This document shows positions 27,450 to 55,600 of a stretch of DNA of 64,000 nt, piece after piece. The DNA comes from Allocoleopsis franciscana PCC 7113. Its GTDB lineage: Bacteria; Cyanobacteriota; Cyanobacteriia; Cyanobacteriales; Coleofasciculaceae. Every line of letters starts with the position of its first letter. The stretch's first letter is position 1. The notes under the pieces were generated by a model. The model saw only the letters and a list, made by a program, of their open reading frames with translations, was not told where the DNA came from and did no database searches. The position numbers were made by a program, and so were the translations under genes. The stretch covers positions 2,375,623 to 2,439,622 of the forward strand of contig NC_019738.1 in the NCBI RefSeq assembly GCF_000317515.1, given 5' to 3'.

Positions 27450-29375
27450 TTATTGCAAGGCAGCGTTAATCCAGTCTTTTAAGGTTGATACCACTTTATC
27501 CAGGGGAATATCCTGGGATTTTTTGGTGGCTCGTTCGACAACTTCTAATTTACCGTCTTTGAGCGATCGCCCGGTTACTATTCGGTAGGGAATTCCGATT
27601 AAGTCGGCATCTTTGAACTTAACACCTGCCCGTTCGTTGCGGTCATCGAGGAGAGTTTCAATCCCTGCTTTGTTCAGTTCGGCGTAGAGTTTCTCTGCCG
27701 CTGCCATTTGCTCGATATCTCCCACATTGGGAACGCAGATGATGACGTGATAAGGTGCAATCATCACAGGCCAGATGATGCCATCTTTGTCATAAGACTG
27801 CTCGACGGCTGCCTGAGCTAGACGCGACACGCCGACACCGTAACATCCCATATATAGGGGACATTCTTCGCCGGATTCGCTGGTGTAGGTGGCACCCATC
27901 GCTTTAGAGTATTTCGTTCCTAATTGGAAGATGTGTCCAGCTTCGATGCCGCGTGCGCTTTGGAGCGTTTGGCTGGGGTTGTGGATGGCGCGATCGCCTA
28001 TTTTTGCCTTACGTACATCGACCTCTATTTTAGGTAACTGGAATTGTTCGCCCCAGTTCGCCCCAACGACGTGATAACCTGACTCGTTGGAACCTGTGAC
28101 GAAGTTTTTTAGATCGACGGCTGTCTTATCCACCAACCGCAAAAACTGAGGGATGACCCCCCCCTGCCCCCCCTTGTCAAGGGGGGAGGTTCCGGACTGG
28201 GGACTTGCTTCTGTTCCCCCCGTTACTGAGGGCGCAACTTCCCCGCTTCCTGTTCCCCCCCTTACTAAGGGGGGGTTAGGGGGGGTCGAATTGATGTAAT
28301 CGTCTGCGATATCTGGGGCAATGTAGCCCAAGGGTAGCGGTTTAGATGCCCATTTTTGTTGAGCAGTCGCATCGGGTACTGTTAGCGAGAGGAGGGTTTT
28401 GGCATTGTACTGCTCTGCCAGCTTCACCAGCTCATTATTTAGCTTCACCTCGTTAACATCTTGGTCGCCTCGGATGCTCACTAGCACGAGTACCGTCATA
28501 CCATTGTCATAGATGGCTTGGTAGAGGACGTTTTTGACGATTTGGGTGGGTGAGCATTTCAGGAATTCACTCAGGGAGTCAATGGTTGGGGTGTTGGGGG
28601 TTTCGCGTTTTTCGTAGCTGGTGAAGGGTGAGGGTTCGGCATCGGGTGGCAAGGATACTGCTTTTTCTACGTTGGCAGAGTACTGACCATCTTCGGTGTA
28701 GAGAACCTCATCTTCTCCCGCTTCTGCCAATATCATGAACTCGGTGGAACCCGAACCGCCAATTGCCCCGGAGTCTGCTTCTACGGGTCTGAACTTCAGA
28801 CCAGAGCGGCGCAGCATGTTGCTGTACGCTTGGTACATATCCTGATAGGTCTTTTTCAGGCTCTCTTCATCGGTATGGAAGGAGTAGCCGTCTTTCATGA
28901 TGAACTCGCGACCGCGCATGAGTCCGAAGCGAGGGCGAATTTCATCCCGGAATTTGGTTTGAATTTGGTACAGGTGCACCGGGAGTTGGCGGTAGGAGCG
29001 AATCATGTCACGAGCAATGGTCGTGATTACCTCTTCATGGGTGGGGCCGAGTGCCACTTCTCGCTCTTGCCGATCTGGGAAGGCGAACATGATGCCTTCG
29101 GCTTTGGTGTAGGTATCCCAACGTCCGGACTCTTTCCACAATTCTGAGGGTTGCAACTGGGGTAGGAGACATTCTTGAGCACCTGTGGCATTCATCTCCT
29201 CGCGCACAATTTGGGAGACTTTTTGCAGGACGCGCCACATTAAGGGGAGATAGGCGTAAATCCCGCTACCGATGCGACGTATGTAGCCTGCGCGGAGTAG
29301 TAGTTTGTGACTGGGGATTTCCGCTTCTGCTGGGTCTTCCCGCAGGGTGACGAAAAGCATATTAGACAGTCGCAT
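27450..29375 (-). CDS. proS: prolyl-tRNA synthetase with in-frame repeat insertion
   Basis: The protein has 641 residues, about 40 more than usual for the bacterial type. Class II motifs are present: [39 protein letters not shown] (motif 2 region) and the motif 3 region [16 protein letters not shown]. The insertion (editing) domain lies at about residues 225-410. The anticodon-binding domain is at the C-terminus. At about residues 362-408 a Gly/Pro-rich peptide ([15 protein letters not shown], then [11 protein letters not shown]) is the translation of a G/C palindromic repeat. The frame stays open, and the flanking sequence resumes normally. Confidence 0.96.
28155..28287. repeat. G/C-rich palindromic repeats inserted inside proS
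   Basis: Three related palindromes lie in a row: one with arms CCCCCCTT and AAGGGGGG around GTC, one with CCCCCCGTTACTGAGGG, and one with CCCCCCTTACTAAGGGGGG. The same type occurs between genes at about 33833. In proS the insertion keeps the reading frame. Confidence 0.8.
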
Positions 29376-29482
29376 CGTATGTTCCCTTTCTCTTACTGGA
29401 TTCTTGCTATCTCAGTCTAGAACATTGGTTGCAACGCTTCAGCAGGGAAGTTTTAGCAGGTACTACACAGTGTCTAGTCCTC

Positions 29483-30370
29483 TCAGTCTACTTCTAGGTC
29501 TGCTCCAGGGAAGTCGGAAAAAGCTTTATCAAAATATTTTGCTAGCTGGATATCTCGATCAGATATTTGATGCTCAATGTCCCAAGTTGATAGGTAAACA
29601 TCAACTGTTTTCCAAATATTTTCCCATCGAGGATGGTGTAGTGCAATTTCGCATCCAGCTGCAACCTGATTCATGAATCCGACTGCATCAAGAAAACTCT
29701 TGAACTTATAGCGCCGAAAAATTTCAGTACGGACTTTGGTTGGATCGTCAGGGTTTTGATTAATAACTTTTTTCCAACTTGATAGATTGCCCTTCAGAGC
29801 AATCTGGAGTTTCTCCTCAGTAATTGGATCGGGTTTTTCTGGAGGAGGAGTTGGGTACACTCCTAAAGACTTGTTTCTTGTGAGGGAACTTTCATTATTT
29901 TTAGGTTTGTTAATAACTAACTTTAGTTGTTCAAGAACAAGCTTAATATCATGAGCCCAATAGGCATCGCGAATCTCTACTGCCTGCCTCTCAGTTAAGG
30001 CACTAATTGAGGCAGGCAACTTATCAGAAGGAGGTATTTTGGCACCTCTAACCAACAACGGTAACAATTTTTTACCATTGCGAAGGGTAAACTCAATCTC
30101 CCGACGAACCCAATCATTGTCTTGATCTATACGGCGCAGCCCATACTCATCACTAATCCGGAGCCAGTCTGGACCTATAACCACGATGACAATTTGAGCA
30201 GCTTGTAGAGCTTCCTCCAATTCCTCTGACCATTGTGTTCCAATCTCAATAGAGGATGTATCCATAAATACAACCTCTTCGCCTAGCTCCCGAGAAATCG
30301 TACTGTGCAAACGTCCAGCCTCGGCAGCACTGTCTGCTCTTCGGTAACTAATAAAAATGGGTACACTCAT
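29483..30370 (-). CDS. TIR domain fused to a pterin-4a-carbinolamine-dehydratase-like domain
   Basis: The protein has 295 residues. Residues 1-150 are a TIR domain: VPIFISYRRADS, VFMDTSSIEIGTQWSEEL, IVVIGPDWL, and DWVRREIEFTL, in which E91 is the likely NAD-cleaving glutamate. A linker of about 30 residues, ending in PTPPPEKPDP, follows. Residues 183-288 match the pterin carbinolamine dehydratase/DCoH fold: YKFKSFLDAVGFMNQVA, then CEIALHHPRWENIWKTV with the H245-H246-P signature, and ISDRDIQLAKYFD. The third catalytic position, normally THD, is STWD here (W263), so full dehydratase activity is doubtful. TIR domains of bacteria commonly act in anti-phage defence by consuming NAD. The gene lies upstream of proS with a 107-bp gap. 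Confidence 0.85.
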   Translation of the reverse strand: MSVPIFISYRRADSAAEAGRLHSTISRELGEEVVFMDTSSIEIGTQWSEELEEALQAAQIVIVVIGPDWLRISDEYGLRRIDQDNDWVRREIEFTLRNGKKLLPLLVRGAKIPPSDKLPASISALTERQAVEIRDAYWAHDIKLVLEQLKLVINKPKNNESSLTRNKSLGVYPTPPPEKPDPITEEKLQIALKGNLSSWKKVINQNPDDPTKVRTEIFRRYKFKSFLDAVGFMNQVAAGCEIALHHPRWENIWKTVDVYLSTWDIEHQISDRDIQLAKYFDKAFSDFPGADLEVD

Positions 30371-30634
30371 TACACAAGCTCACTTTATATAAAGTAGATT
30401 ACTGGCTAACTATTTGCTGAACCACTTGCGATAAATTAATTAGCTTTTCTGAGATATTATTCGACACTCAGTAGACTTAATCCGGGAACCTTGAAAGCAT
30501 TGTAGCAATGAGTGAGGACACTGCTGTAGATACTAAAGAGTAAAGAGTGATCGCACACAAAGCCTCCTTCACCTTTTTGCTGCCTCGCATAAATTTGGAT
30601 GACATGAACAGTAGGTGCGATCGCCTCTTATCCA

Positions 30635-31102
30635 CTAAGTCACCGCATCCGAATCAAATATAACCTCGAACTCAGTAGCAGGCATCCACTTACCAAGAAA
30701 GCGCTTATGATTTTCCGCTTCCATGCGACTGTAGAAGCGACCAACCGTATAGTGTTGAGCATTCGGCAACAACCTAACCAGTGTCCAGGGATAATTCTTT
30801 TGATTCCAGAAGCGTTGCGTCGAATCTGGGGATTGTTCTGCTATTCGACCGCAGCCCCGATGCTCCAAAATAGAAGAAATTTGAGCTAAAAGTTGCGCTC
30901 TCTCTGGTGTCTCATCATTCGGTAACAAGCTCCATTCACGCACTGGTGGGGGTAGCCAAGTCAAGGTGTAAGAAACGGAGCCTTTGCAAAGATACCAAGA
31001 CAAGCGGCGCGGCTGTTTGCGGCAGTTGAAGCCATCGGCGCGTAAAGACGCAACAACCCTGTCGCCCTCAGTTTGGAGGCGAAGCCATTCGGAGTGTTTC
31101 AT
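30635..31102 (-). CDS. hypothetical protein
   Basis: The protein has 155 residues from the ATG at 31102; a longer frame to 31171 is less likely. It contains RRLSWYLCKGSVSYTLTW, then a helix (ERAQLLAQISSILEHRG). RFWNQKNYPWTLVRLLPNAQHYTVGRF and ENHKRFLGKWMP follow. The C-terminal 60 residues look like a small alpha/beta domain with conserved aromatics. There is no signal peptide. I do not recognise the family. It stands alone between the TIR gene and a palindrome array. Confidence 0.55.
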   Translation of the reverse strand: MKHSEWLRLQTEGDRVVASLRADGFNCRKQPRRLSWYLCKGSVSYTLTWLPPPVREWSLLPNDETPERAQLLAQISSILEHRGCGRIAEQSPDSTQRFWNQKNYPWTLVRLLPNAQHYTVGRFYSRMEAENHKRFLGKWMPATEFEVIFDSDAVT

Positions 31103-31216
31103 TGGTATGATTTGGGTAACGTTTTTAGGAAAGGGCGATCTGCAAGGATTGCAAAATTGCGATAAATGCAAAAATGCGATCGCCTGTTATTTCTGGAAAA
31201 TACACATCTTGCACTA

Positions 31217-43312: not shown

Positions 43313-45223
43313 CTAAACGATTTTAAGACCCGATGCCAACTTGATGAGATACTCTTTGCGCCATTTAGCGTCAGCTTTGCGGTTAGTTTGCAACTCCAAA
43401 ACTCGAATTCCCGCCGCAGAAAGTGGGTTTAACAATTCCTTAAACTGCTCCCAAGATTTAATTAATTGGTGTTCTACCCCATAAGTCATACATAATTGTG
43501 CAAAGTTGATGTTTTGGGGGGTGGCAAAGAATTCTTCAAAGGGTGGATCAAATTGGGAAATCGGCAACATCTCGAAAATCCCACCGCCATTGTTGTTGAT
43601 TAAAACAATGGTTAAATGACCGACAAATTTGTTTATCAGTAAGAAACCATTGGTATCATGCAACAAGGCTAAATCACCCGTCAGCATGACACTACTCTGA
43701 TGACGGTGAGCCATACCCAAAGCGGTGGATAAGGTGCCATCAATGCCGTTAGCACCCCGATTAAAAAAGGGTTGAATCCTTTTATTGTTGGGTTGCCAAA
43801 AGAATTCCACATCCCGCACCGGCATACTATTGGCAATAAATAAAGGTGTGTCCGGTGGGAGAATTTGAGAGAGTAACCAGGCGGCTTTCCCTTCAAATAA
43901 TTGAGTCATCGTAGCCATTTTTGGGTCAACAACTGACCTAACTTGGGCTTCAAGTTCACACCATTGCTTTAGGTAGCCAGAGGTTGAATTTTCCCCTAAG
44001 TTCCCGATGTTGTTGGCGAATTCGGAAAACCTAACCCCCCTGCCCCCTTCCCTGCAAGGGAAGGGGGTGCCGGAAAGCCCATCCCCTCTTAGGGGAGGGG
44101 TTGGGGAGGGGTTTGACTCGTCAGTTAATTCGCCAACAGTATCCCTCGCTTTTTGAATGGGAGAAAGAGTCGTCACCAGTTGTTCAATGGTTGTCCGCAG
44201 ATGGGTGGTTTTACCGTGCAGGGGGTCAAGGTTATGATGACTGGGGTCAATGATCCAGCGTTGGGGTTGGGTTTGATCTAACCAGGTACGCAGTTCCTTA
44301 CTCGTTGGCAGTTCACCAATTTGAATCACCATTTTGGGTGTGAGGGGTTGCGCCAGTTTCGGGTTACGCAGGATGAGATCGTAGGTGGAAATCAGATTAG
44401 GGTTGATGTCTGCATTGTTTCTCACGGGTGAGAGTCCTTCCGCGAGTACAGGCCATCCTAGAGTTTGGGATAAATGTGCGATCGCATCACAATAGTTTCT
44501 GGGATGCTGAGGTTGGGCAACACCTGCAATGATGATACCGCGATCGCATTGTTGCCATTCTGAGTAGGGACTGGGTAATGGGTAATGGGTAATGGGTAAT
44601 GGGGAATGGGATAAATTCGTGAACAACTCTTCGAGTTCAAATGGGGAGGGGAGGGTATCCGGATCGAGTTGCTGTAAGGGCGCGAGGGGGTCGCGGAAGG
44701 GTATATTGAGGTGAACCGGGCCAGGAGTTGGAAATAGGGCGCGTTCCCAGGCATGAACCAGGGTTTGCCGTAGATATCTCAATCGACTAATTCCCACAGA
44801 AGGCGGCGATAACTCGGTTTGCCAGTTGGGGTAATGACCATATAGCTTGAGTTGGTCAATAGTTTGCCCAGAATGGCAATCTCGCAGTTCCGGGGGACGG
44901 TCAGCCGTTAAAATGAGCAACGGCACCCGACTTTCTTTGGCTTCAATCACCGCTGGGTAGAAGTTTGCCCCGGCTGTGCCAGAGGTACACAGGAGGACAA
45001 CCGGACGTTGAGTAGCCTTAGCGATTCCCAAGGCAAAGAAGGCGGCTGAACGTTCATCCAGAACCGGTATTGATTCTATCTGGTTTTGTTGAGCAAAAGC
45101 GACAGCGAGAGGGGCTGAACGTGACCCCGGACAGATGACGGCGGTGGTCAATCCTAAGCGTTTCAGGGTTTCCGTCAGGATGGAAGCCCAGACAGTGTTA
45201 ATGTTACGAAAATCAATGGGCAT
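43313..45223 (-). CDS. menD: menaquinone/phylloquinone synthase MenD with two in-frame repeat insertions
   Basis: The protein has 636 residues, against about 560-590 for the family. The order is: N-terminal ThDP domain (VICPGSRSAPLAVAFAQQ, SAAFFALGIAKATQRPVVLL, CTSGTAGANFYPAVIEA), central domain, then C-terminal ThDP domain (NRGANGIDGTLSTALGMA and LTGDLALLHDTNGFL). It makes SEPHCHC from isochorismate and 2-oxoglutarate in phylloquinone synthesis. Two stretches are extra: SPLPITHYPLPSPYS (a translated heptamer repeat) and NPSPTPPLRGDGLSG-TPFPC (a translated G/C palindrome). Both lie in the less conserved central region. The start is 50-135 bp from the divergent NRPS gene. Confidence 0.95.
   Translation of the reverse strand: MPIDFRNINTVWASILTETLKRLGLTTAVICPGSRSAPLAVAFAQQNQIESIPVLDERSAAFFALGIAKATQRPVVLLCTSGTAGANFYPAVIEAKESRVPLLILTADRPPELRDCHSGQTIDQLKLYGHYPNWQTELSPPSVGISRLRYLRQTLVHAWERALFPTPGPVHLNIPFRDPLAPLQQLDPDTLPSPFELEELFTNLSHSPLPITHYPLPSPYSEWQQCDRGIIIAGVAQPQHPRNYCDAIAHLSQTLGWPVLAEGLSPVRNNADINPNLISTYDLILRNPKLAQPLTPKMVIQIGELPTSKELRTWLDQTQPQRWIIDPSHHNLDPLHGKTTHLRTTIEQLVTTLSPIQKARDTVGELTDESNPSPTPPLRGDGLSGTPFPCREGGRGVRFSEFANNIGNLGENSTSGYLKQWCELEAQVRSVVDPKMATMTQLFEGKAAWLLSQILPPDTPLFIANSMPVRDVEFFWQPNNKRIQPFFNRGANGIDGTLSTALGMAHRHQSSVMLTGDLALLHDTNGFLLINKFVGHLTIVLINNNGGGIFEMLPISQFDPPFEEFFATPQNINFAQLCMTYGVEHQLIKSWEQFKELLNPLSAAGIRVLELQTNRKADAKWRKEYLIKLASGLKIV
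44030..44115. repeat. G/C palindromic repeat inside menD
   Basis: Two palindromes occur: CCCCCTTCCCTGCAAGGG (continuing AAGGGGG) and CCCCTCTTAGGGGAGGGG. They are translated in frame in menD. The sequence is of the same class as the insertions in proS and the second NRPS gene. Confidence 0.75.
44573..44607. repeat. heptamer tandem repeat (STRR-like) inside menD
   Basis: Five tandem units are present: GGGTAAT four times, then GGGGAAT. Heptamer repeats of this kind (STRR) are known from cyanobacterial genomes, usually between genes. Seven-base units shift the frame each time, so three units are needed to return to frame; here the region is open and reads as alternating Leu-Pro-Ile-Thr-His-Tyr-Pro. 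Confidence 0.85.
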
Positions 45224-45273
45224 TGCTAGCGATCGCGTATCGGAAAAACAAGATTCCCGTACTTGTATATAAG

Positions 45274-48200
45274 ATGTTAGGGTTTTTTGAGAGTTGGGAG
45301 GAATATTGCCTCAATCAATCACCCCTTTCTGCATCAGTTCTTACGAGTACGTACCACATGCCTGAGGAAGAAGAAGTCTTTATTTTCCCCGCCTCGTTTG
45401 CTCAAGCTAGGCTGTGGTTCATAGACCAATTAGTTCCCGGTAATAGCTTTTATAATGTTCCAACAGCACTGCGTTTGATCGGTTCGCTTAACTTCAGTGC
45501 CTTGGCGCAGACGTTCCACGAAATTGTACGTCGGCACGAAGCTTTACGCACCCGCTTTGGGATAGCCCAAGAGCAACTCGTTCAGATGATTCCTGCGGAC
45601 AGCTTCGCGGATGTGTCAGCGTCTCCCTTGGGCAGTTGCGCCGCCCCATTCACCCTGAATTTGCCAGTCATCGACCTACAACATTGTCCCGCCGGGGAAA
45701 GGGAACTTCAAGCCAAGCGCTGGGTGAGTGAGGAATCTCAACGTCCTTTCAATCTTGCCACTGGCCCGTTGCTGCGAGTATTCCTGTTGAAGCTGGAGGA
45801 GACAGACCATGTACTATTGCTCAATCTGCACCATATTATCTGCGACGATTGGTCGATCGGAGTGCTGATTCGGGAATTAAGCGCTATCTACACCGCGTTT
45901 ACTCAAAATCAGCCTTCTCCTCTGGCAGAACTGCCTCTGCAATATGCCGACTTTGCCCATTGGCAGCGCGAATGGTTGCAAACAGAAGTTCTGGAAACTC
46001 AGTTAACCTACTGGCGGCAACAATTGGATGGCATTTCCCGACTGAATCTGCCCACAGATCGACCAAACCCTACTGTACCCAGTTATCGAGGAGCGACTCA
46101 ATATCTAGAGCTATCCCCAAGCTTAAGTCAGGGATTAGAGCAACTCTGCCAACAACAAGGGGTGACTCTGTTTATGACCTTGCTGGCAGCATTCCAAACC
46201 CTACTCTACCGCTACACCCAGCAAGAGGACATTGTCGTCGGTTCGCCTATTGCCAATCGCAACCGCAGTGAGATTGAAGGGTTAATTGGTTTTTTTGTCA
46301 ATACCTTAGTCCTGCGTACTGACTTATCGGGCAACCCAACCTTTCAGGAATTGCTTGATAGAGTACGGGAAGTCACATTGGGAGCCTATGCTCACCAAGA
46401 TTTGCCGTTTGAGAAGCTCGTCGAAGAATTGCATCCCCAACGTGCCTTAAGCCGCCATCCCCTATTCCAAGTGGTGTTTGGTTTTGAGAATGCACCCATG
46501 GAGGCGCTGGAATTGCCCGGATTAACCCTAAGTCCTCTGACGATTGACTTTAAAACCACGCGCTTTGACTTGGAGTTTCACCTTTGGGATGCTTCCGGAG
46601 GCTTCAGAAGTCTGTGGGGGGAGGAATGGAAACACTCCGAAGGCATTAGAGGCGTGGTGGTGTACAACACGGATTTATTCGATGCAGCCACGATTACCCG
46701 CATGGTAGGACATTTTATAACACTGCTCGAAGGGATTGTGGCGAATCCCCAAACCAGGGTTGCCAGTTTACCCATCCTGTTAGACGCTGAGCGACAGCAG
46801 TTATTAGGGGAATGGAATGACACCTTTGCCGATTATCCCCAAAATCGCTGCATCCATCAGTTATTTGAGGAGCAGGTCAAACACAATCCTAATGCGATCG
46901 CCGTCATCTCTGATGATAATTCACTGACTTACCAAGAACTGAACAGTCGCAGTAATCAATTAGCACATTACTTACAAAAACAGGGTGTCAGTTCCGATGT
47001 TTTAGTAGGACTTTGTGTAGAGCGTTCTGTAGAGATGATCGTGGGAATGTTGGCTATCCTGAAAGCCGGAGGAGCCTATTTACCTTTAGACCCTAGTTAT
47101 CCCCAAGAGCGCCTAAGTTTTATGCTTGAGGATGCTCAAGTTTCAGTGTTATTAACACAGCAGCATTTAGTTGAACGTCTGGGCCCACAAAAATTACAAA
47201 TTATTGGTATAGATGCGGATTGGAATCGTGTTACCCAAGAAAGTTTAGAAAACCCAACCAGTGGTGTAACAAGTGATAATTTAGCTTACGTTATTTATAC
47301 ATCTGGCTCAACCGGAAAACCCAAGGGAGTGGCTATCCCGCACAAAGCCGTGAATCGATTGGTTTGCAATACGAACTATATCAAGTTAGACTCTGCCGAT
47401 AAAATTGCCCAAGTCTCGAATACGTCATTCGATGCTGCAACCTTTGAAATTTGGGGCGCACTGCTTCATGGCGCTCAGCTTGTTGGTATTAGCCGAGATG
47501 TCCTGCTTTCGCCCCATGATTTTGTCTTACAACTCCAACAAAAAGGCATTACTGTATTATTTCTAACCACCGCTTTATTCCAACAGATTGCCAGAGATAT
47601 TCCCCAGGCTTTTGCTTCATTGCGATATTTGTTATTTGGAGGTGAAGTGGTCGATCCTAGATGGGTAAGAAAGGTTCTGAAAAAGGGAGCGCCACAGAAA
47701 TTAAGTCATGTTTATGGGCCAACCGAGGGGACAACCTTTTCTTCTTTTTATCAGGTGCAAGATGTACCGGAAGAAGCAACATCTATCCCCATTGGTCGCC
47801 CTATTACAAACACGCATATTTATCTGTTAGATGAGCAGCTTCAGCCTGTACCTATCGGCATTCCAGGAGAGTTGTACATCAGTGGTGATGGACTAGCGCG
47901 AGGCTACCTCAACCGTCCTGAGTTAACATCTCAACGATTCATTCCCAATCCATTTGTAGGGGTACCTTTTATGGGGGCTCAGCCAGGAACGCGCCTTTAT
48001 AAAACAGGTGATTTAGCTCGTTATCGAGCAGATGGCAACATCGAGTTTTTAGGTCGAATTGATAATCAAGTCAAGATTCGCGGCTTCCGGATCGAGTTAG
48101 GAGAGATTGAATCTGTACTCAATCAGCATCCCGCCGTGAGAGAAGCAGTGGTGATGGTTCAGCAGGATGTACCGGATGATAAACACTTAGTCGCCTACAT

Positions 48201-48690
48201 TGTCTTTAACGAGCAAGTTAACCATCCAAAATCGAGTGAGTTGCGCCAATTTTTGAACGAGAAGTTACCCCAATATATGGTGCCTTCAGCCTACGTGGTG
48301 CTAGATTCTTTGCCACTGACACCGAATGGTAAAGTCAATCGCCATCTTCTACCAGAGGTCGATGCCTTTAATCTGGATACAGAACAAAATTATGTGGCAC
48401 CGGGGACTGGCATTGAGGAGGAATTAGCGAGAATTTGGGGTCAGATTTTGGGAAAACAGCAAGTCGGAATTTACGATAATTTCTTTGAATTAGGGGGTCA
48501 TTCTCTGCTGGCAACTCAACTAACTTCTCGGATACGGGATGCCTTTCAGGTAGAGTTATCTGTCCGTATTTTGTTTGAGGCTCCGACTGTGGCGAGTTTA
48601 GCTAAGCATATTGAAACAATTCGTTGGGCAATTCAAGGTCAGGATACGGCTAATTCTATAAGGAATGAGCGAGAAGATGTGGAGTTTTGA
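45274..48690 (+). CDS. non-ribosomal peptide synthetase module (C-A-PCP)
   Basis: The protein has 1138 residues from the ATG at 45274; ATG at 45358 and TTG at 45223 are alternatives, and none has a strong ribosome-binding site. The condensation domain (about 30-460) has the active motif HHIICDDWS, with the usual DG changed to DD. The adenylation domain (about 500-1010) has AYVIYTSGSTGKPKG and YGPTEGT. The carrier domain (about 1040-1110) has DNFFELGGHSLLATQL. The ten pocket residues, read by eye, are DAFFLGVTFK, which points to an aliphatic residue such as Ile. No release domain is present. It is divergent from menD. Confidence 0.92.
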   Translation: MLGFFESWEEYCLNQSPLSASVLTSTYHMPEEEEVFIFPASFAQARLWFIDQLVPGNSFYNVPTALRLIGSLNFSALAQTFHEIVRRHEALRTRFGIAQEQLVQMIPADSFADVSASPLGSCAAPFTLNLPVIDLQHCPAGERELQAKRWVSEESQRPFNLATGPLLRVFLLKLEETDHVLLLNLHHIICDDWSIGVLIRELSAIYTAFTQNQPSPLAELPLQYADFAHWQREWLQTEVLETQLTYWRQQLDGISRLNLPTDRPNPTVPSYRGATQYLELSPSLSQGLEQLCQQQGVTLFMTLLAAFQTLLYRYTQQEDIVVGSPIANRNRSEIEGLIGFFVNTLVLRTDLSGNPTFQELLDRVREVTLGAYAHQDLPFEKLVEELHPQRALSRHPLFQVVFGFENAPMEALELPGLTLSPLTIDFKTTRFDLEFHLWDASGGFRSLWGEEWKHSEGIRGVVVYNTDLFDAATITRMVGHFITLLEGIVANPQTRVASLPILLDAERQQLLGEWNDTFADYPQNRCIHQLFEEQVKHNPNAIAVISDDNSLTYQELNSRSNQLAHYLQKQGVSSDVLVGLCVERSVEMIVGMLAILKAGGAYLPLDPSYPQERLSFMLEDAQVSVLLTQQHLVERLGPQKLQIIGIDADWNRVTQESLENPTSGVTSDNLAYVIYTSGSTGKPKGVAIPHKAVNRLVCNTNYIKLDSADKIAQVSNTSFDAATFEIWGALLHGAQLVGISRDVLLSPHDFVLQLQQKGITVLFLTTALFQQIARDIPQAFASLRYLLFGGEVVDPRWVRKVLKKGAPQKLSHVYGPTEGTTFSSFYQVQDVPEEATSIPIGRPITNTHIYLLDEQLQPVPIGIPGELYISGDGLARGYLNRPELTSQRFIPNPFVGVPFMGAQPGTRLYKTGDLARYRADGNIEFLGRIDNQVKIRGFRIELGEIESVLNQHPAVREAVVMVQQDVPDDKHLVAYIVFNEQVNHPKSSELRQFLNEKLPQYMVPSAYVVLDSLPLTPNGKVNRHLLPEVDAFNLDTEQNYVAPGTGIEEELARIWGQILGKQQVGIYDNFFELGGHSLLATQLTSRIRDAFQVELSVRILFEAPTVASLAKHIETIRWAIQGQDTANSIRNEREDVEF

Positions 48691-48951
48691 GAGAAAGGTA
48701 CAGTATTCGCATCCTCTCGTCATGCCAAATGCGATCGCTTCTCTTCCTTATATCTTGCACCAGGTTACATTGATATCTAGCCTGTCGCGTTTGGCTAAAG
48801 GTTGTAGACGTTGAATGTTTGCATTAGGTAATAATGCCATCAGTGGAAGCAAGAGTCTGATATGGCGCTAGCATCAAAATCATCAGATCTTGAATTAGCG
48901 CTTGGGCTTTAGTCAAAATGGCACACATAAGGGGGATGGAGATTTTACAAC

Positions 48952-49920
48952 ATGAGTTTGACTGAAAAACTTCAATCTGTATTTGTCATCATTGCCATCT
49001 TACTTGGGCTGATACTCGGACAAATCAAATGGGTTGAGGAAAATGCTGTATCTTTGATTGTTCCATCCTTGATGGTCATGCTCTATGGGGTATTTCTAAA
49101 TATTCCACTGAATCGTTTAGGTCAGGCATTTCAAAACTACAAGATGACGGGACTTATTTTAGGGATGAACTTTCTTTGGACACCAGTTTTTGTTTGGGGA
49201 TTGGGAGCTATTTTCCTACGAGATTCTCCCGATCTTTGGGTTGGGCTAATCATGCTGATGGTCACACCTTGTACTGACTGGTATCTCATTTTTACAGGGA
49301 TTGCCAAAGGAAATGTTACTTTAGCTACAGCCTTCCTTCCTTGGAATATGATCTTGCAAGTGGTTCTTATACCCGTCTATCTTTTGGTTTTTGTTGGAAA
49401 ATTGGTGCAAATTGATACAGAAATTTTTCTCGAAAGTATTGTACTGGTTTTAGCTATTCCTATGCTTTTAGCGTTTATCGCTAAGTGGCTAATACCGAAG
49501 GTAAACGGGTTTTGGCGTGACATTCCCCTGAAAATAGCCGCAAGGCCAACGCTATTTCTATGTGTGGCAATTACAGCGGTATTTGCCTCGCAGGGGCAAA
49601 CCTTAATTCAGCGTCCAGATGTGCTACTAAAAATGTTACCACCTATCCTTATTTTCTATGTAATTACCTTTTTTCTGACTCAAGTAATTGCACGATTCGG
49701 CAACTTTAGTTATGAGGATTTGGCTTGTTTCAGTTGTACAACACTTGCGCGCAATTCACCCCTTGCATTAGCGATCGCTACATCTGTTTTTCCTCACCGT
49801 CCGTTGATTACCCTTGTCTTGGCTATTGAGCCACTTATCGAACTGCCTGTTATGGTGCTAGTCTCCCAATTATTGCTCTTTCTACGTCGCAAAGGGCGGT
49901 ATTCTCAGATGGCAAAATAG
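48952..49920 (+). CDS. BASS/ACR3-like membrane transporter
   Basis: The protein has 322 residues with about ten membrane helices. LIVPSLMVMLYGVFLNIPLN, MLMVTPCTDWYLIFTGIAKG and TTLARNSPLALAIATSVFP fit the bile acid:sodium symporter superfamily. TPCT resembles the ACR3 arsenite efflux motif (PCT). Arsenite export is possible, but no ars genes are nearby and the context is NRPS genes, so substrate is open. Confidence 0.75.
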   Translation: MSLTEKLQSVFVIIAILLGLILGQIKWVEENAVSLIVPSLMVMLYGVFLNIPLNRLGQAFQNYKMTGLILGMNFLWTPVFVWGLGAIFLRDSPDLWVGLIMLMVTPCTDWYLIFTGIAKGNVTLATAFLPWNMILQVVLIPVYLLVFVGKLVQIDTEIFLESIVLVLAIPMLLAFIAKWLIPKVNGFWRDIPLKIAARPTLFLCVAITAVFASQGQTLIQRPDVLLKMLPPILIFYVITFFLTQVIARFGNFSYEDLACFSCTTLARNSPLALAIATSVFPHRPLITLVLAIEPLIELPVMVLVSQLLLFLRRKGRYSQMAK

Positions 49921-49956
49921 CTAAGTTGGCGTTACAGTCTCCCTGCTTGAACCAGC

Positions 49957-49993
49957 TTACTCTTTGTAGCTTGTTGAGTGAGGTTATCTAGTC
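49957..49993 (+). repeat. 37-bp direct repeat, left copy
   Basis: It starts TTACTCTTTGTAGCTTGTTG and matches 51013-51049 at 33 of 37 positions. The two copies bracket the HepT-MntA pair. Confidence 0.75.
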
Positions 49994-50305
49994 GGGCACG
50001 TGAAGCGTAGCTATCCCGAAGGGAATCGCATCCTCATCATAATATCGTTCGCTAGAGAACCGTAAGATTTTCAATCAGGTCAAGGTCAAAATCTCTTTGG
50101 GTTGCACGATAACGAAGATAGGATGTCCAGATCATTTCAGGCATTGGTTCATGATTAGCGGTTTCTGTCACCCATTATTATTCCTGCGATCGCCCTTCCT
50201 AATATCCCCGATCGCATCTCTCGACAACAGCAGCGATCGCACTGCAAGATCGGCGATCACATTATTTCCTCATAAGAAGGATAGATTAGCGATCGCACTC
50301 TCACC
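49994..50305. other. HIP1-rich intergenic region
   Basis: About 310 bp with four GATCGC-type sites close together, among them GCGATCGCCC at 50187, AGCGATCGCA at 50231 and GCGATCGCAC at 50290. No gene is supported; the frames are poor in codon structure. Confidence 0.5.
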
Positions 50306-50647
50306 TCACGCTTCCCCCAACTCCTGCAATATCCTTTCCACCGCTACCTTCAACGGAGGTAGATTATTCTGTACGATCGCCCAGACTAAATTCAGCGATA
50401 CCCGGAAATACTCATGCACCACAACATTTCTGAAAGCCACAATCTGTGCCCACGGCACCTCAGAATATCGACTCATCAAATCACCCGATAACGAAGAAGC
50501 TGCTTCTCCAATAATCTGGAGATGATGAATAACCCAAACCTGGATTAGTTCTTGTTCATCAAACGCCTGTTTGCCAAGACTTGCATATCGTTCAATCGCT
50601 GAAATCGCATCTAAAATATCTTGCAGCCGTTGGGCATCACGCCTCAT
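50306..50647 (-). CDS. hepT: HepT-like HEPN ribonuclease/toxin
   Basis: The protein has 113 residues. RDAQRLQDILDAISAIERY and the motif RNVVVHEYF (R-X4-H-X-Y) near residue 73 are diagnostic for HepT (DUF86). It overlaps the upstream nucleotidyltransferase gene by 4 bp. HepT toxins are kept inactive by the paired MntA, which adds AMP to the toxin's tyrosine. Confidence 0.92.
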   Translation of the reverse strand: MRRDAQRLQDILDAISAIERYASLGKQAFDEQELIQVWVIHHLQIIGEAASSLSGDLMSRYSEVPWAQIVAFRNVVVHEYFRVSLNLVWAIVQNNLPPLKVAVERILQELGEA

Positions 50648-50955
50648 AGCATCACAGCCTCACGGCATACGCGATCGCGAATACGTTCCTTCAACATATC
50701 CACTGTCGCAATATCAACCTTGCGATTGAGTAGTTGTTCTAAATCAATTAATAGTCCTGCTGGAAACCAGGGCGTGATTTTCTCCAAATCATAGTCAACC
50801 AAAAAATCAATATCGCTCTCTTCGGTTGCTTCTCCCCGCGCCACCGAACCAAACACCCGCACGTTGTAGGCTCCATGCTTTTGTGCAATAGCAAGAATTT
50901 GCGATCGCTGCTCTTGCAACAAATCGTTAATCCCTAACCCTATTTTGCTAGTCAT
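50644..50955 (-). CDS. mntA: MntA-like nucleotidyltransferase antitoxin
   Basis: The protein has 103 residues. The minimal nucleotidyltransferase motif GSVARGEATEESDIDFLVD (G-S-X10-D-X-D) is intact. It precedes hepT by a 4-bp overlap, as usual for HepT/MntA toxin-antitoxin systems. It belongs to the island between the two NRPS genes. Confidence 0.92.
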   Translation of the reverse strand: MTSKIGLGINDLLQEQRSQILAIAQKHGAYNVRVFGSVARGEATEESDIDFLVDYDLEKITPWFPAGLLIDLEQLLNRKVDIATVDMLKERIRDRVCREAVML

Positions 50956-51012
50956 GCCGCTACATCCTCAACGCTTTCTGGTTGTCTTTAGTCAATTTGT
51001 TTAACTTTTAGG

Positions 51013-51049
51013 TTACTCTTTGTAGCTTGTTGGGTGAGGTCATCCTGTC
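51013..51049 (+). repeat. 37-bp direct repeat, right copy
   Basis: This is the partner of 49957-49993. It lies 57 bp upstream (in + coordinates) of the MntA start and next to HIP1-like sites. Spacing between copies is about 1.06 kb. Confidence 0.75.
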
Positions 51050-51127
51050 AAGCGCGATCAAATCCAGCAATTACAGCAGCAGATTGAGGTGTGGCAAGCG
51101 ATGCGGTCAAAGTTGCTTCAATAAAAC

Positions 51128-51769
51128 TCATGTCGTGATAGCTTTTTGCCAACATGATGCCAGCACATCAGCAAAATTGTTGTCAAGCACAGCAGCACGA
51201 ATGTCTTTCCCAGTTATGGGCACTACAAGTGTATGCTCTCGGCTTCCACGCAGCATCTCTTTAGGAACAGTGTCTTTGAAGCCATTCCATGAGATTAAGA
51301 AGCCCAGAGAACACCGATTGCTACGGTTTTCGATTTTCTCCTTGAATAGAACGAACTCGTTCTTGCCACACTTGTCACTCCAATTCTTGCACTCAGCCAA
51401 CAGAATAGCCGATTCCCGTCTAAAGCGAGGATCATTGCTATCGTTAAGGACAGCAATATCAATTTCTTCTGTCGCTGTCCTGATCCGATCGGTCACAGTA
51501 AAACCAGGTATTGCCTCAAATAATCTACTAATAAGTTCTTCTAGAGATCTTCCACGCTCATCGGTGGAAGAAGCTTTTTCAACTGCATTCACAAGTTCGT
51601 CTAAACTTTGGCTACCCCATCCAGACACTCGACTTGCAATTTCAGAAAGTCTTTTACCTGCTTCATCAGACGCTTTTTCGGCTTTTTCTTCTAGCTCATG
51701 ACAGAGTCGTTTTATGTGGTGGTACGCTTTGCCAAGATTCTTTTCCCCTGTACTAACAACAAATGTCAT
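51128..51769 (-). CDS. restriction-endonuclease-like (PD-(D/E)XK) protein
   Basis: The protein has 213 residues from the ATG at 51769; one at 51790 is possible. A helical N-terminus (AYHHIKRLCHELEEKAEKAS) is followed by a nuclease-like domain. RSLEELISRLFEAIPGF, then TEEIDIAVLND (Asp) and ILLAECKNWSDKCGKNEF (the E-x-K pair) are the PD-(D/E)XK core, with the Mrr-like helix order. It could be a restriction or defence nuclease. It overlaps the upstream gene by 17 bp. No methylase is nearby. Confidence 0.7.
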   Translation of the reverse strand: MTFVVSTGEKNLGKAYHHIKRLCHELEEKAEKASDEAGKRLSEIASRVSGWGSQSLDELVNAVEKASSTDERGRSLEELISRLFEAIPGFTVTDRIRTATEEIDIAVLNDSNDPRFRRESAILLAECKNWSDKCGKNEFVLFKEKIENRSNRCSLGFLISWNGFKDTVPKEMLRGSREHTLVVPITGKDIRAAVLDNNFADVLASCWQKAITT

Positions 51770-52124
51770 CTGGATATAAGCTACCATCATCGTCGTAGTT
51801 TGTTATCTCCACATCATTATGAACCCTGTTACGCAACTCAACAGCACGACGTATCAAGTCTAGATAGTGTTCTAGCCCTATGGGAGAGTACCAATACTTT
51901 CTTGTCCAAGTGTAATCTGCTTCACCTTTAATTTGATCTTGGTCTTTGAATAGCCTACCGCTCCAGTCAAGATGCATAACGCCATCTTTAGGTAAGCCAA
52001 CCTCAATCATCACCTGGTTAGGAATGTCATCTAATGTTATTTTGTTTAATACACTTGGGGGAAGAAAAACTGCTTCATCTTCATAAGCAGCTTCCAGTCG
52101 GGCTTTAGCTTCCGCAACGTCCAT
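51753..52124 (-). CDS. hypothetical protein coupled to the nuclease-like gene
   Basis: The protein has 123 residues. It begins DVAEAKARLEAAYEDEAVFL and contains LPKDGVMHLDWSGRLFKDQD and WYSPIGLEHYLDLIRRAVEL. It is acidic at the C-terminus (NYDDDGSLYPDD). The overlap of 17 bp with the next gene shows coupled translation, so the two products probably act together. I do not know the family; an antitoxin or specificity role is only a guess from position. Confidence 0.6.
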   Translation of the reverse strand: MDVAEAKARLEAAYEDEAVFLPPSVLNKITLDDIPNQVMIEVGLPKDGVMHLDWSGRLFKDQDQIKGEADYTWTRKYWYSPIGLEHYLDLIRRAVELRNRVHNDVEITNYDDDGSLYPDDICC

Positions 52125-52211
52125 AGGTACTTAACTTCTTGAAACAAATAACCCTAAAATATCACTTGACCAGTTTCTCAATGCAATCCTTGATCAGGAG
52201 CGATCGCTCCT

Positions 52212-52421
52212 TCAGCAAGCCTCGACATATTCACACAGAGTAGTTGGTTCGGGAATGGGTAAACCCTCTTCTCGTAAACCATCCAAATGAAAAGCGATCG
52301 CTTCTTTTATCTGCTGTTCTATCTCCCCAAGAGTTGCACCTGTCGCCACGCATCCGGGCAAATCTGGAACATAAGCTGAATAGTTGCTCTCTAGCTTTTC
52401 AATCACCATCACATAGCGCAT
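52212..52421 (-). CDS. hicB: HicB-like antitoxin
   Basis: The protein has 69 residues. YVMVIEKLESNYSAYVPDLP, GCVATGATLGEIEQQIKEAI and FHLDGLREEGLPIPEPT are the HicB partial RNase H fold. No DNA-binding tail is present. Its start overlaps the end of a hicA remnant (TAATG). Without an intact toxin it may now be an orphan. Confidence 0.88.
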   Translation of the reverse strand: MRYVMVIEKLESNYSAYVPDLPGCVATGATLGEIEQQIKEAIAFHLDGLREEGLPIPEPTTLCEYVEAC

Positions 52422-52528
52422 TACTCTTCTTCTCCTTCGTCCTTGTGTTCCTTGAGTTGAGCTTGCTTCAAAATACTGTTTAACGTGCCAGGTGCTAAAT
52501 CATCAGAATGCTGACCCTCTAGCACCAT
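52421..52528 (-). pseudogene. hicA: 5'-truncated hicA toxin remnant
   Basis: Only about 36 codons remain. The peptide VMVLEGQHSDDLAPGTLNSI followed by LKQAQL matches the C-terminal half of HicA, in which G-T-L-x-x-I-L is conserved. Upstream, the same strand has stops in all frames within about 20 codons and no other HicA part. The double-stranded RNA-binding N-terminus with its catalytic His is missing, so the toxin should be inactive. The overlap with hicB is kept. Confidence 0.6.
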
Positions 52529-52698
52529 TACACCTTCTCATCCTGCCAAAACGCGATTGCGTTACTCTAGCAAAAGCGATCGCATCCTGCTTGACGGACA
52601 GAACCTTAAACGCAAGCCCTACATAGGCTACTCCTCATGGAGGATGACTAAGTTTTGTGGAAGTGGCAACTTATCTTGCTAGTGAGTGAGATTTAGTT

Positions 52699-55600
52699 TT
52701 GAAAACAGTTGAGTTCTTATCTTACCTTCGTAGCTTAGACATTCAGGTTTTTGTTGAGAGTGACCGCCTGCGCTGCAACGCCCCTGAAGGAACTCTAACA
52801 CCAGAAATTCGTGCAGAAATCCAAGCGCGTAAAGCAGAAATTATTTCATTTTTAAAAGCCGCTAATCGTACTAGCACTAACCCTTCTACCCCCCTTGTTC
52901 CCATCTCGCGGGAAGGCACCCTTCCCCTCTCTTTTGCACAACAACGGCTGTGGTTCCTCGACCAGTTAGTCCCTAACAATGCCTTCTATAACACCCCAGC
53001 CGCAGTACGTCTCAGCGGTTCGCTCAATTTAGCGGCGCTGGAGGAAACATTTAACGAAATTGTGCGGCGTCACGAAGCGTTACGCACTACTTTTGTCACA
53101 GTGGAAGGGCAACCGGTTCAGGCGATCGCACCCACCTTAACCTTATCCTTACCTGTAATCGATTTGCGATCGCATCCCCAAACCGAACGCGAAAATGAAG
53201 TAGGACGACTGACTACCCAAGCAGCTCAGCGCCCTTTCGATTTATCCAAAACTCCGCTGCTACGAGTAACAGTACTGCAATTGGATGAAGCCGAGTATGT
53301 GCTCTTAATAATTTTGCACCACATTGTCTCCGATGGTTGGTCGATGGGGGTGCTGATTCGGGAAATAGCCGCACTCTACAGTGCCATCAGTAGTCAACAA
53401 CCTTCATCGCTCCCCCCACTACCCATTCAGTATGCAGACTTTGCCTACTGGCAACGTGAATGCTTGCAAGGGGAAGTGTTAGCCACTCAACTAGCTTACT
53501 GGCGGCAACAGTTAGACGGCATTTCTGTGCTAAATATGCCGAGTGACCGACCAAAACCCGCCGTGCAAACTTACCAAGGTGCGACACAATTTCTGCAATT
53601 ACCCAAAAGTCTAAGCGAGGCACTCGAAGCCCTGAGCCAACGGGAAGGAGCCACCTTATTCATGACTTTACTGGCGGCATTTCAAACCTTACTGTATCGC
53701 TACACACAACAGGAAGATATTGTTGTAGGTTCTCCTATTGCCAATCGTAACCGGAGTGAAATTGAAGGATTAATTGGCTTTTTTGTGAATAGCTTAGTGC
53801 TGCGTACTGACCTATCCGGTAACCCTACTTTTCGGGAACTATTGAGTCGAGTGCGAGAGGTGGCACTAGGAGCGTATGCTCACCAAGACTTACCTTTTGA
53901 AAAGTTGGTAGAAGAACTGCATCCGGAGCGGAGTTTAAACCAAAATCCCTTATTTCAGGTGGTGTTTGCCCTGCAAAATGCACCTATGGAAACGCTAGAG
54001 TTACCCGAATTAACCCTAAGCCCACTGGAATTTGTGGATACAGGAACAACGCGGTTTGATTTGGAATTTCATCTGTGGGAGCGAAAGCCAAATCAGGGTC
54101 TAGAAGCCAATAGATCGGAAGGAATCAGTGGTTTTGTGGTGTATAGCACTGATTTATTCGATGCAGCCACGATTACCCGAATGCTAGACCATTTCCAAAA
54201 ATTGCTAGAGGGGATTGTTGCCAATCCTGAACAACGACTGGCAGACTTACCCCTATTAAAGGAAGCGGAGCGCCATCAATTATTAGTGGAATGGAATAAT
54301 ACTCAGATAGAGTATACCAAAGATAGATGTGTTCATCAATTATTTGAAGCTCAAGTTGAAAAAACACCTGATGCTGTAGCCTTAATTTTTGAAAATCAAG
54401 AAATTACTTATGGGGAGTTGAACCGTCGGAGTAATCAGCTAGCTCATTACCTCCGAAAACAAGGAGTTGGGGAGGAGGTTTTAGTCGGACTTTGTCTAGA
54501 GCGTTCACCAGAAATGGTTGTCGGAATGCTAGGCATTCTCAAGGCAGGAGGAGCTTATTTACCTTTAGACCCTAGCTATCCGGCTGAGCGATTGAGCGTT
54601 ATGCTTGAAGAGGCCCAAGTGCCAGTTTTATTAACTCAGCAACAGTGGGTTGAGCGGATTGGCAAGAATCAGCCACAAGTTATTTGTTTTGACACTGATG
54701 GAGAAACAATTGCCCGAAAAAATGCAGATAATCTAATCCACCACGTTACATTAAATAACCTGGTTTATGTTATCTATACCTCTGGCACCACAGGCAAGCC
54801 AAAAGCCGTTCAGATTGAACATCGTGGATTGTTAAATTTGGTCTTTTGGCATCAACAAACCTTTGCCATTTCATCCCTTGACCGAGCCACCCAGATTGCA
54901 GGATTTGCTTTTGATGCTTGTGGGTGGGAAATTTGGCCTTATCTTAGTACAGGCGCGAGTATTTATTTTCCGAATGAAGAAATTCGACGTTCTCCTGAAC
55001 GATTACGGGATGAGTTGATATCCAAATCAATCACAATTAGCTTTTTACCAACCCCTTTAGCCGAGAAATTTCTGTTATTAGATGGATTTAATAATAGCGC
55101 TTTACGACTATTGCTCACAGGAGGAGACAAACTTCGTTATTATCCTTCCGCTTCTCACCCGTTTCAGGTTGTGAATAACTATGGTCTTACGGAGACTACA
55201 GTTGTTGCCACATCCGGTATTGTTCCTGGTAAAGAAACAGTTGGAATGTATGGCAAGATGCCCGTAACCCCTGTATTGGGTCGCCCCATTGCCAACACAC
55301 AGGTTTACATTTTGGATCAATATTTACACCCTGTACCGATTGGCGTTGTGGGTGAATTGTACATTAGTGGTGATGGACTAGCGCGAGGTTATCTCAATCA
55401 TACCGATTTGACAGTTGAACGATTTATTCCTCATCCTTTTAGTGATAACCCAGAAGCTCGTCTTTATAAAACAGGCGATTTAGTTCGCTATGAACCGAAT
55501 GGTAATATTCAATTTTTGGGTCGCATTGATGAGCAGGTAAAGATTCGTGGTTATCGCATCGAATTGGGTGAAATTGAGTCAGTTTTAACTCAACATCCCG

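Follow-up and report, generated by a model that had tools for sequence, protein, structure and literature searches.

The window, that is, the whole stretch of 64,000 nucleotides analyzed here, encodes on its minus strand a 295-residue protein that consists of an N-terminal TIR domain and a C-terminal domain of the pterin carbinolamine dehydratase (PCD, or DCoH) family. The features of the locus, with the evidence from which they were delineated, are the following.

29483..30370, minus strand: gene of the TIR-PCD fusion (295 aa), with its ATG start codon at 30370 (open reading frame, Pfam, AlphaFold2, orthologs)
29921..30370, minus strand: TIR domain, residues 1-150 (Pfam TIR_2 at 5-132, SARM1 alignment, Foldseek)
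30098-30100, minus strand: codon of E91 (aligned with SARM1 Glu642)
29846..29893, minus strand: flexible linker, residues 160-175, its end overlapping the YPTP motif (pLDDT <50)
29486..29857, minus strand: extended W-type PCD module, residues 172-295, comprising the YPTPPPEKP lead, the PCD fold and about 11 extra residues near 206-216; marked residues H245-H246-P247, R248, E250, W263, H267 and D273 (Pfam, alignment, tree, Foldseek)
29453..30548, no strand: variable stretch of 1,096 bp with the TIR-PCD gene as its only gene (blastn junctions against the sister species genome G464)

Both domains score well above the curated Pfam cut-offs: TIR_2 (PF13676) matches residues 5-132 with E=2e-15 (57.8 bits, cut-off 28), and Pterin_4a (PF01329) matches residues 182-282 with E=3.9e-21 (75.4 bits, cut-off 26). 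An AlphaFold2 model of the protein, for which the input was an alignment of orthologs combined with single-domain relatives, has a mean pLDDT of 88.5 and shows two well-defined domains connected by a disordered linker (residues 160-175). Foldseek searches with this model matched the N-terminal half to the SARM1 TIR domain (TMt 0.85), with the SARM1 E642A structure 7cm7 among the matches, and the C-terminal half to PCD/DCoH structures (3jst, TMt 0.90; also 2v6t and 1f93); sequence matches in the PDB divide the protein in the same manner, between SARM1/TIR-1 and PCD/DCoH proteins. The open reading frame at 29483-30370 is a true TIR-Pterin_4a fusion, and the original prediction, which had read TIR motifs in residues 1-150 and a DCoH fold in the C-terminal part, is borne out for both halves. 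Among the fusions, the pairwise identities of the TIR and PCD halves co-vary (r=0.97 across 21 non-independent pairs), suggesting long co-inheritance of the two. A chance fusion, a read-through product or a misassembly can be ruled out because orthologs of the fusion are present in several cyanobacterial families and their halves co-diverge. The alternative named in the original prediction, an ordinary single-domain TIR protein with a random C-terminus, is at odds with the same data: the PCD half is conserved and diverges together with TIR.

Within the TIR half, E91 lies in the motif DWVRREI that aligns with DWVHKEI of SARM1 and is conserved in the full-length orthologs; the aligned SARM1 residue is the catalytic Glu642. 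Thus, as had been proposed from the motifs, the TIR half is predicted to be an NAD+-cleaving enzyme with E91 as the catalytic glutamate. With SARM1 and the bacterial TIR NADases, the protein shares the TIR fold and the catalytic motif DWVxxEI, but its TIR domain would be regulated by a PCD domain rather than by ARM-SAM, STING, SAVED or STAND modules. The TIR half falls below the Pfam threshold for the Thoeris protein ThsB (ThsB_TIR, 16.5 bits, cut-off 21.2) and below that for ThcB4 (35.3 bits, cut-off 220), and no ThsA effector gene adjoins the fusion gene, the neighbors being, judged by their sequences, proS and a 178-aa open reading frame. The PADLOC matches to the protein are weak and cover the TIR part only (best 9.9e-7, residues 3-70).

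The fusion gene is located between these two neighbors, and in G464, a sister species of the same genus, these flanks are conserved but enclose an XRE-type HTH gene and a gene for a 314-aa protein (L089/L091; blastn); the stretch that is unique to the present genome compared with G464 contains TIR-PCD alone. The gene follows sdhA in Nostoc and ruvA in Pelatocladus, and given that the neighbors differ, no partner gene accompanies it; among the loci compared, there is no conserved neighbor that would tie TIR-PCD to known defense genes. The synonymous divergence (pS) from Nostoc is 0.41-0.42 for TIR-PCD compared with 0.71-0.74 for sdhA, and GC3 is 0.34 for TIR-PCD compared with 0.57 for proS; both differences point to horizontal transfer of the fusion gene. 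As for the surroundings, the 178-aa open reading frame (30635-31171, minus strand) belongs to a multicopy family with 25 matches in G464; proS contains a repeat-like extra stretch at ~28158-28286 (minus strand) that is absent from the proS of the sister species (alignment break at residues 363-407); and two long open reading frames that resemble non-ribosomal peptide synthetases (1155 and 1616 aa) lie at 45223-57549 of the window.

The extended PCD forms a discrete family, as indicated by the gap in the search of the order between the scores of its members (238-245 bits) and those of ordinary PCDs (~70 bits or less). This family is rare, being represented in 3 of the 389 genomes of the order, in 5 of 388 genomes in the sample of the class, two divergent copies included, and at five loci in a collection of 85,000 species scanned with two short patterns. 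The fusion clade spans several cyanobacterial families and one Rhodococcus plasmid, a range that answers the question of taxonomic spread raised in the original prediction and that, outside Cyanobacteria, was sampled via plasmid records and the two pattern scans only. In the PCD tree, all fusion PCDs are located on one side of a single branch (support 100/99), and a long, fully supported branch separates the W-type from the stand-alone PCDs; in the loci and genomes searched, every W-type PCD observed is attached to an effector. Two copies are disrupted: in that from plasmid pRHL1 of Rhodococcus jostii RHA1 (L038 11938-12889), TIR and PCD are in two frames, and the copy in genome G912 (L096) is also split by a frameshift, so selection on these two may be weak; the splits may reflect decay, an error in sequencing or frameshifting. 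In genome G215, a TIR truncated by repeats is retained.

A phage- or virus-borne origin was considered and rejected: the extended PCD has no match in IMG/VR, the TIR-PCD protein has none in phage records, and a BFVD fold search returned weak TIR-like matches only; a stand-alone PCD occurs in just two gut phage records. These results bear also on the idea that the PCD half is an integrated decoy that imitates a target of phages in the host, either a PCD or a RAF2-like protein, such that binding of a phage protein frees the TIR domain. Such targeting is on record for the plant PCD-like protein RAF2 and poleroviral P0 (PMC5972614), but identity between the fusion PCD and host PCDs amounts to only ~35%, the fusion PCDs cluster in a separate clade, and with no match in the phage and viral contig collections, we regard a decoy as extremely improbable.

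The PCD half retains H245-H246-P247 and D273 and carries W263 at the position expected for the third catalytic His, so that the sequence there reads S261-T262-W263-D264; the H245-H246-P and STWD motifs had been identified correctly in the original prediction. In the alignment, Trp occupies this position in all 11 fusion PCDs (the window gene, G338, Nostoc favosum, N. desertorum, Pelatocladus, Leptothoe, G857, G782, G912, the Tolypothrix CHAT fusion described below and Rhodococcus jostii RHA1), compared with none of the 34 stand-alone cyanobacterial PCDs sampled by similarity to the fusion, where the residue is His (28) or Tyr (6). The H-H-P...D pocket motif is kept in all fusion members, and H245, H246, P247, W263 and D273 persist down to ~35-41% identity. 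Compared with the stand-alone PCDs, the main fusion clade has R248 in place of Glu, E250 in place of Ser or Phe, and H267; the clade-specific R248 and E250 are positioned beside the His pair. The YPxP motif (residues 172-175) ahead of the PCD is conserved as far as Rhodococcus and G782, and most fusion PCDs contain some 11 additional residues near 206-216, a stretch that is shorter in G782. The dN/dS ratios for unsaturated pairs are 0.12-0.25 for the TIR half and 0.15-0.56 for the PCD half, the value of 0.56 coming from few changes, and both halves evolve under purifying selection. We therefore consider a degenerate PCD ruled out by the invariant pocket residues together with dN/dS below 1 in the PCD half. 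The changed catalytic His noted in the original prediction is real, but it cannot be taken as a sign of decay given the conserved pocket; W263 is a fixed signature of the clade, and the pocket seems to have been retuned, not ruined. Alternatively, R248 and E250 flanking the pocket could mark a protein-binding surface. The six stand-alone PCDs with Tyr at the third-His position (L012, L013, L020, L044, L052 and L063) include several from genomes of the Nostoc family (f6).

Loss of dehydratase activity should not be assumed, because the PCD activity motif of Naponelli et al. 2008 reportedly accepts either His or Trp at the third-His position; the His-to-Trp change could permit catalysis. The fusion might then be a bifunctional metabolic enzyme, in which an active dehydratase repairs or makes a pterin that the TIR domain uses or by which it is regulated, and the arrangement H-H-P-x5-[YW]-x9-W-x9-D would fit this signature. 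Such a role appears highly improbable: the best NCBIfam equivalog score of the PCD half is 69.6 bits, short of the cut-off of 108 (EC 4.2.1.96), the distribution of the fusion is rare, patchy and mobile, and, as shown below, the effector has been swapped for a protease. Moreover, the host genome encodes PTPS and one stand-alone canonical PCD in addition to that of the fusion, but a genome search detected no aromatic amino-acid hydroxylase, which makes pterin recycling an unlikely job for the fusion; pterins themselves are at hand in the cell. Another gene of this host (L086, G000:C1:6412645-6413436), about 8 kb from that for the stand-alone PCD, encodes two tandem PTPS domains in one 295-aa frame.

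In Tolypothrix, a CHAT domain, of the caspase-like proteases, is fused to a W-type PCD that is preceded by the same YPTPPPEKP lead (L005 826-1920; also L036). Both parts are recognized by Pfam (CHAT, 1.4e-11; Pterin_4a, 5.4e-17), and the CHAT part is similar to the PDB CHAT protein 8tl0 (6.6e-10) and contains both motifs of the catalytic dyad, HG and NACY. This fusion is nested inside the TIR-PCD group of the tree; the effector has been swapped from TIR to CHAT while the PCD was kept, which suggests that the W-type PCD is a previously undescribed sensor module that can be moved between immune effectors of bacteria. The nearest TIR proteins without PCD carry, in their C-terminal parts, NB-ARC (L007), GUN4 (L009 and L010) or a region with a weak EAD9-like match (L008); in L009 and L010, a hydrophobic stretch, probably a membrane helix, precedes GUN4. 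The CHAT swap and these C-terminal partners place the PCD in the position of a sensor or adaptor. Both observations, and the conserved pocket as well, agree well with the original prediction that the PCD part may serve the TIR effector as a ligand sensor or as a scaffold.

The strongest rival to a pterin-binding regulatory role is that the PCD half is an oligomerization scaffold only, which crowds TIR or CHAT domains by forming the DCoH dimer or tetramer, the trigger residing elsewhere, for example, in another NTPase or in a protein of a phage. Proximity is what activates TIR and caspase-like effectors, proteins of the DCoH type are known dimerization cofactors (the DCoH/HNF-1 complex 1f93 is among the matches), the linker in TIR-PCD is flexible, and one type of PCD is common to both effectors, all of which would suit a scaffold. 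A scaffold, however, would have no need for H245, H246, P247, W263 and D273, and the deep conservation of these residues leads us to consider a pure scaffold rather unlikely.

The PCD half might also be an adaptor of the EAD type that recruits the effector to another PCD protein, such as the stand-alone one, through homotypic contact. Small domains common to different effectors are the principle of these systems (PMC8195603, PMC7159879), with which the TIR-to-CHAT swap is in accord, and a stand-alone PCD does exist in the host genome. Conversely, the multiple copies and the core NTPase that characterize EAD systems are not in evidence: the PCDs of the host genome are TIR-PCD and one stand-alone protein, a single W-type PCD is present in each genome checked (the host and Tolypothrix), and the host genome encodes no NTPase or STAND protein with PCD. 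Furthermore, the described EADs are non-catalytic, in contrast to the enzyme-derived ligand pocket of the W-type PCD; PCD is not mentioned among them, and neither pterin nor DCoH is mentioned in the two papers on EADs (PMC7159879, PMC8195603). Together with the long branch between W-type and stand-alone PCDs, these differences make a homotypic adaptor improbable, although TIR-PCD and CHAT-PCD resemble EAD systems in that a small common domain is attached to alternative effectors.

By analogy with TIR-GUN4, we read TIR-PCD as a one-gene conflict or cell-death effector that would be controlled by an enzyme-derived pterin-binding (or oligomerizing) domain. It is with middling confidence that we propose a self-contained, horizontally moving effector gene, with the TIR domain as the weapon and the PCD reused as a pterin-binding regulatory module. 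From the pocket residues, we infer that the ligand of the PCD would be a pterin. The oligomerization, catalysis, trigger and outcome can be pictured as follows: the PCD half would form the dimer or tetramer typical of its family and, through the retained His-His-Pro pocket and Trp263, would bind a tetrahydropterin, a class of compounds abundant in cyanobacteria; the occupancy or the redox state of the pterin would set the arrangement of the tethered TIR domains; and disturbance of the pterin pool by infection, oxidative collapse or photosynthetic failure would cause the TIR domains to assemble and to hydrolyze NAD+, with arrest or death of the cell as the outcome. Oligomerization would be the likely link between the pterin-binding domain and the TIR NADase, and in Tolypothrix, a CHAT protease would be controlled by the same PCD module. 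The broader proposal, namely, that this is an unreported immune or cell-death switch in which a retuned PCD senses the tetrahydropterin pool and licenses an interchangeable TIR NADase or CHAT protease, is advanced more tentatively, as a possibility that we hold with some doubt.

Pterin glycosides are produced at high levels by cyanobacteria (PMC13259868, PMC3546692), and the level of cyanopterin in Synechocystis is comparable to that of chlorophyll a (PMC3546692); the roles of these abundant compounds are still incompletely understood (PMC13259868, PMC3546692). There is a parallel for an enzyme family that became a pterin sensor with a catalytic residue turned into Trp, namely, PruR (PMC13259868); PruR, however, has a SUOX-like fold, is periplasmic and exerts its effect on the DcpA c-di-GMP enzymes by way of a separate gene. 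A close known analog is TIR-GUN4, where GUN4 has been proposed to be a tetrapyrrole sensor that controls fused TIRs, caspases, trypsins and kinases in cyanobacteria (PMC7159879, where the GUN4-TIR association is mentioned). The TIR domains of L009 and L010 are related to that of TIR-PCD (39-41% identity), the C-terminal domain in both cases comes from a protein that binds a small molecule in photosynthetic metabolism, and effectors are swapped between families; unlike PCD, GUN4 binds tetrapyrroles, has an unrelated fold and, in L009 and L010, follows the hydrophobic stretch. With the PCD/DCoH proteins themselves (PF01329; 3jst, 2v6t, 1dch, 1f93), the fusion PCD shares the fold, the His-His-Pro pocket, the conserved Asp, W199, F223 and F226; it differs from them in the Trp at the third-His position, the Arg and Glu beside the His pair, His267, the YPxP lead, the extra stretch at 206-216 (in most members) and the attachment to an effector in every case seen.

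A TIR or CHAT effector with an exchangeable sensor or adaptor is a known design; the use of PCD in that position is, to our knowledge, new. In the open-access literature, subscription papers and preprints lying outside the search, we found no publication that joins pterin or carbinolamine dehydratase with TIR, and the statement that no defense system of this composition had been described is, to that extent, uncontradicted. If the PCD half senses pterins, TIR-PCD and its CHAT counterpart would be pterin-gated effectors, a TIR and a protease, respectively; this would link cyanobacterial pterins to programmed cell death or phage defense and would extend beyond GUN4 the use of metabolite-binding domains as switches of killer enzymes in multicellular cyanobacteria. 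TIR-PCD lends itself readily to experiment because it is a single gene of less than 900 bp with a predicted class of ligands, a catalytic Glu and pocket residues that can be mutated.

With respect to the two effector families, the host genome yields 13 matches to TIR_2 and 54 matches to CHAT. Two large open reading frames of this genome (1395 and 1068 aa) contain three tandem TIR domains each, at G000:C1:7298736-7300397 (L070, L071, L075) and 3797849-3799504 (L072, L073, L076).
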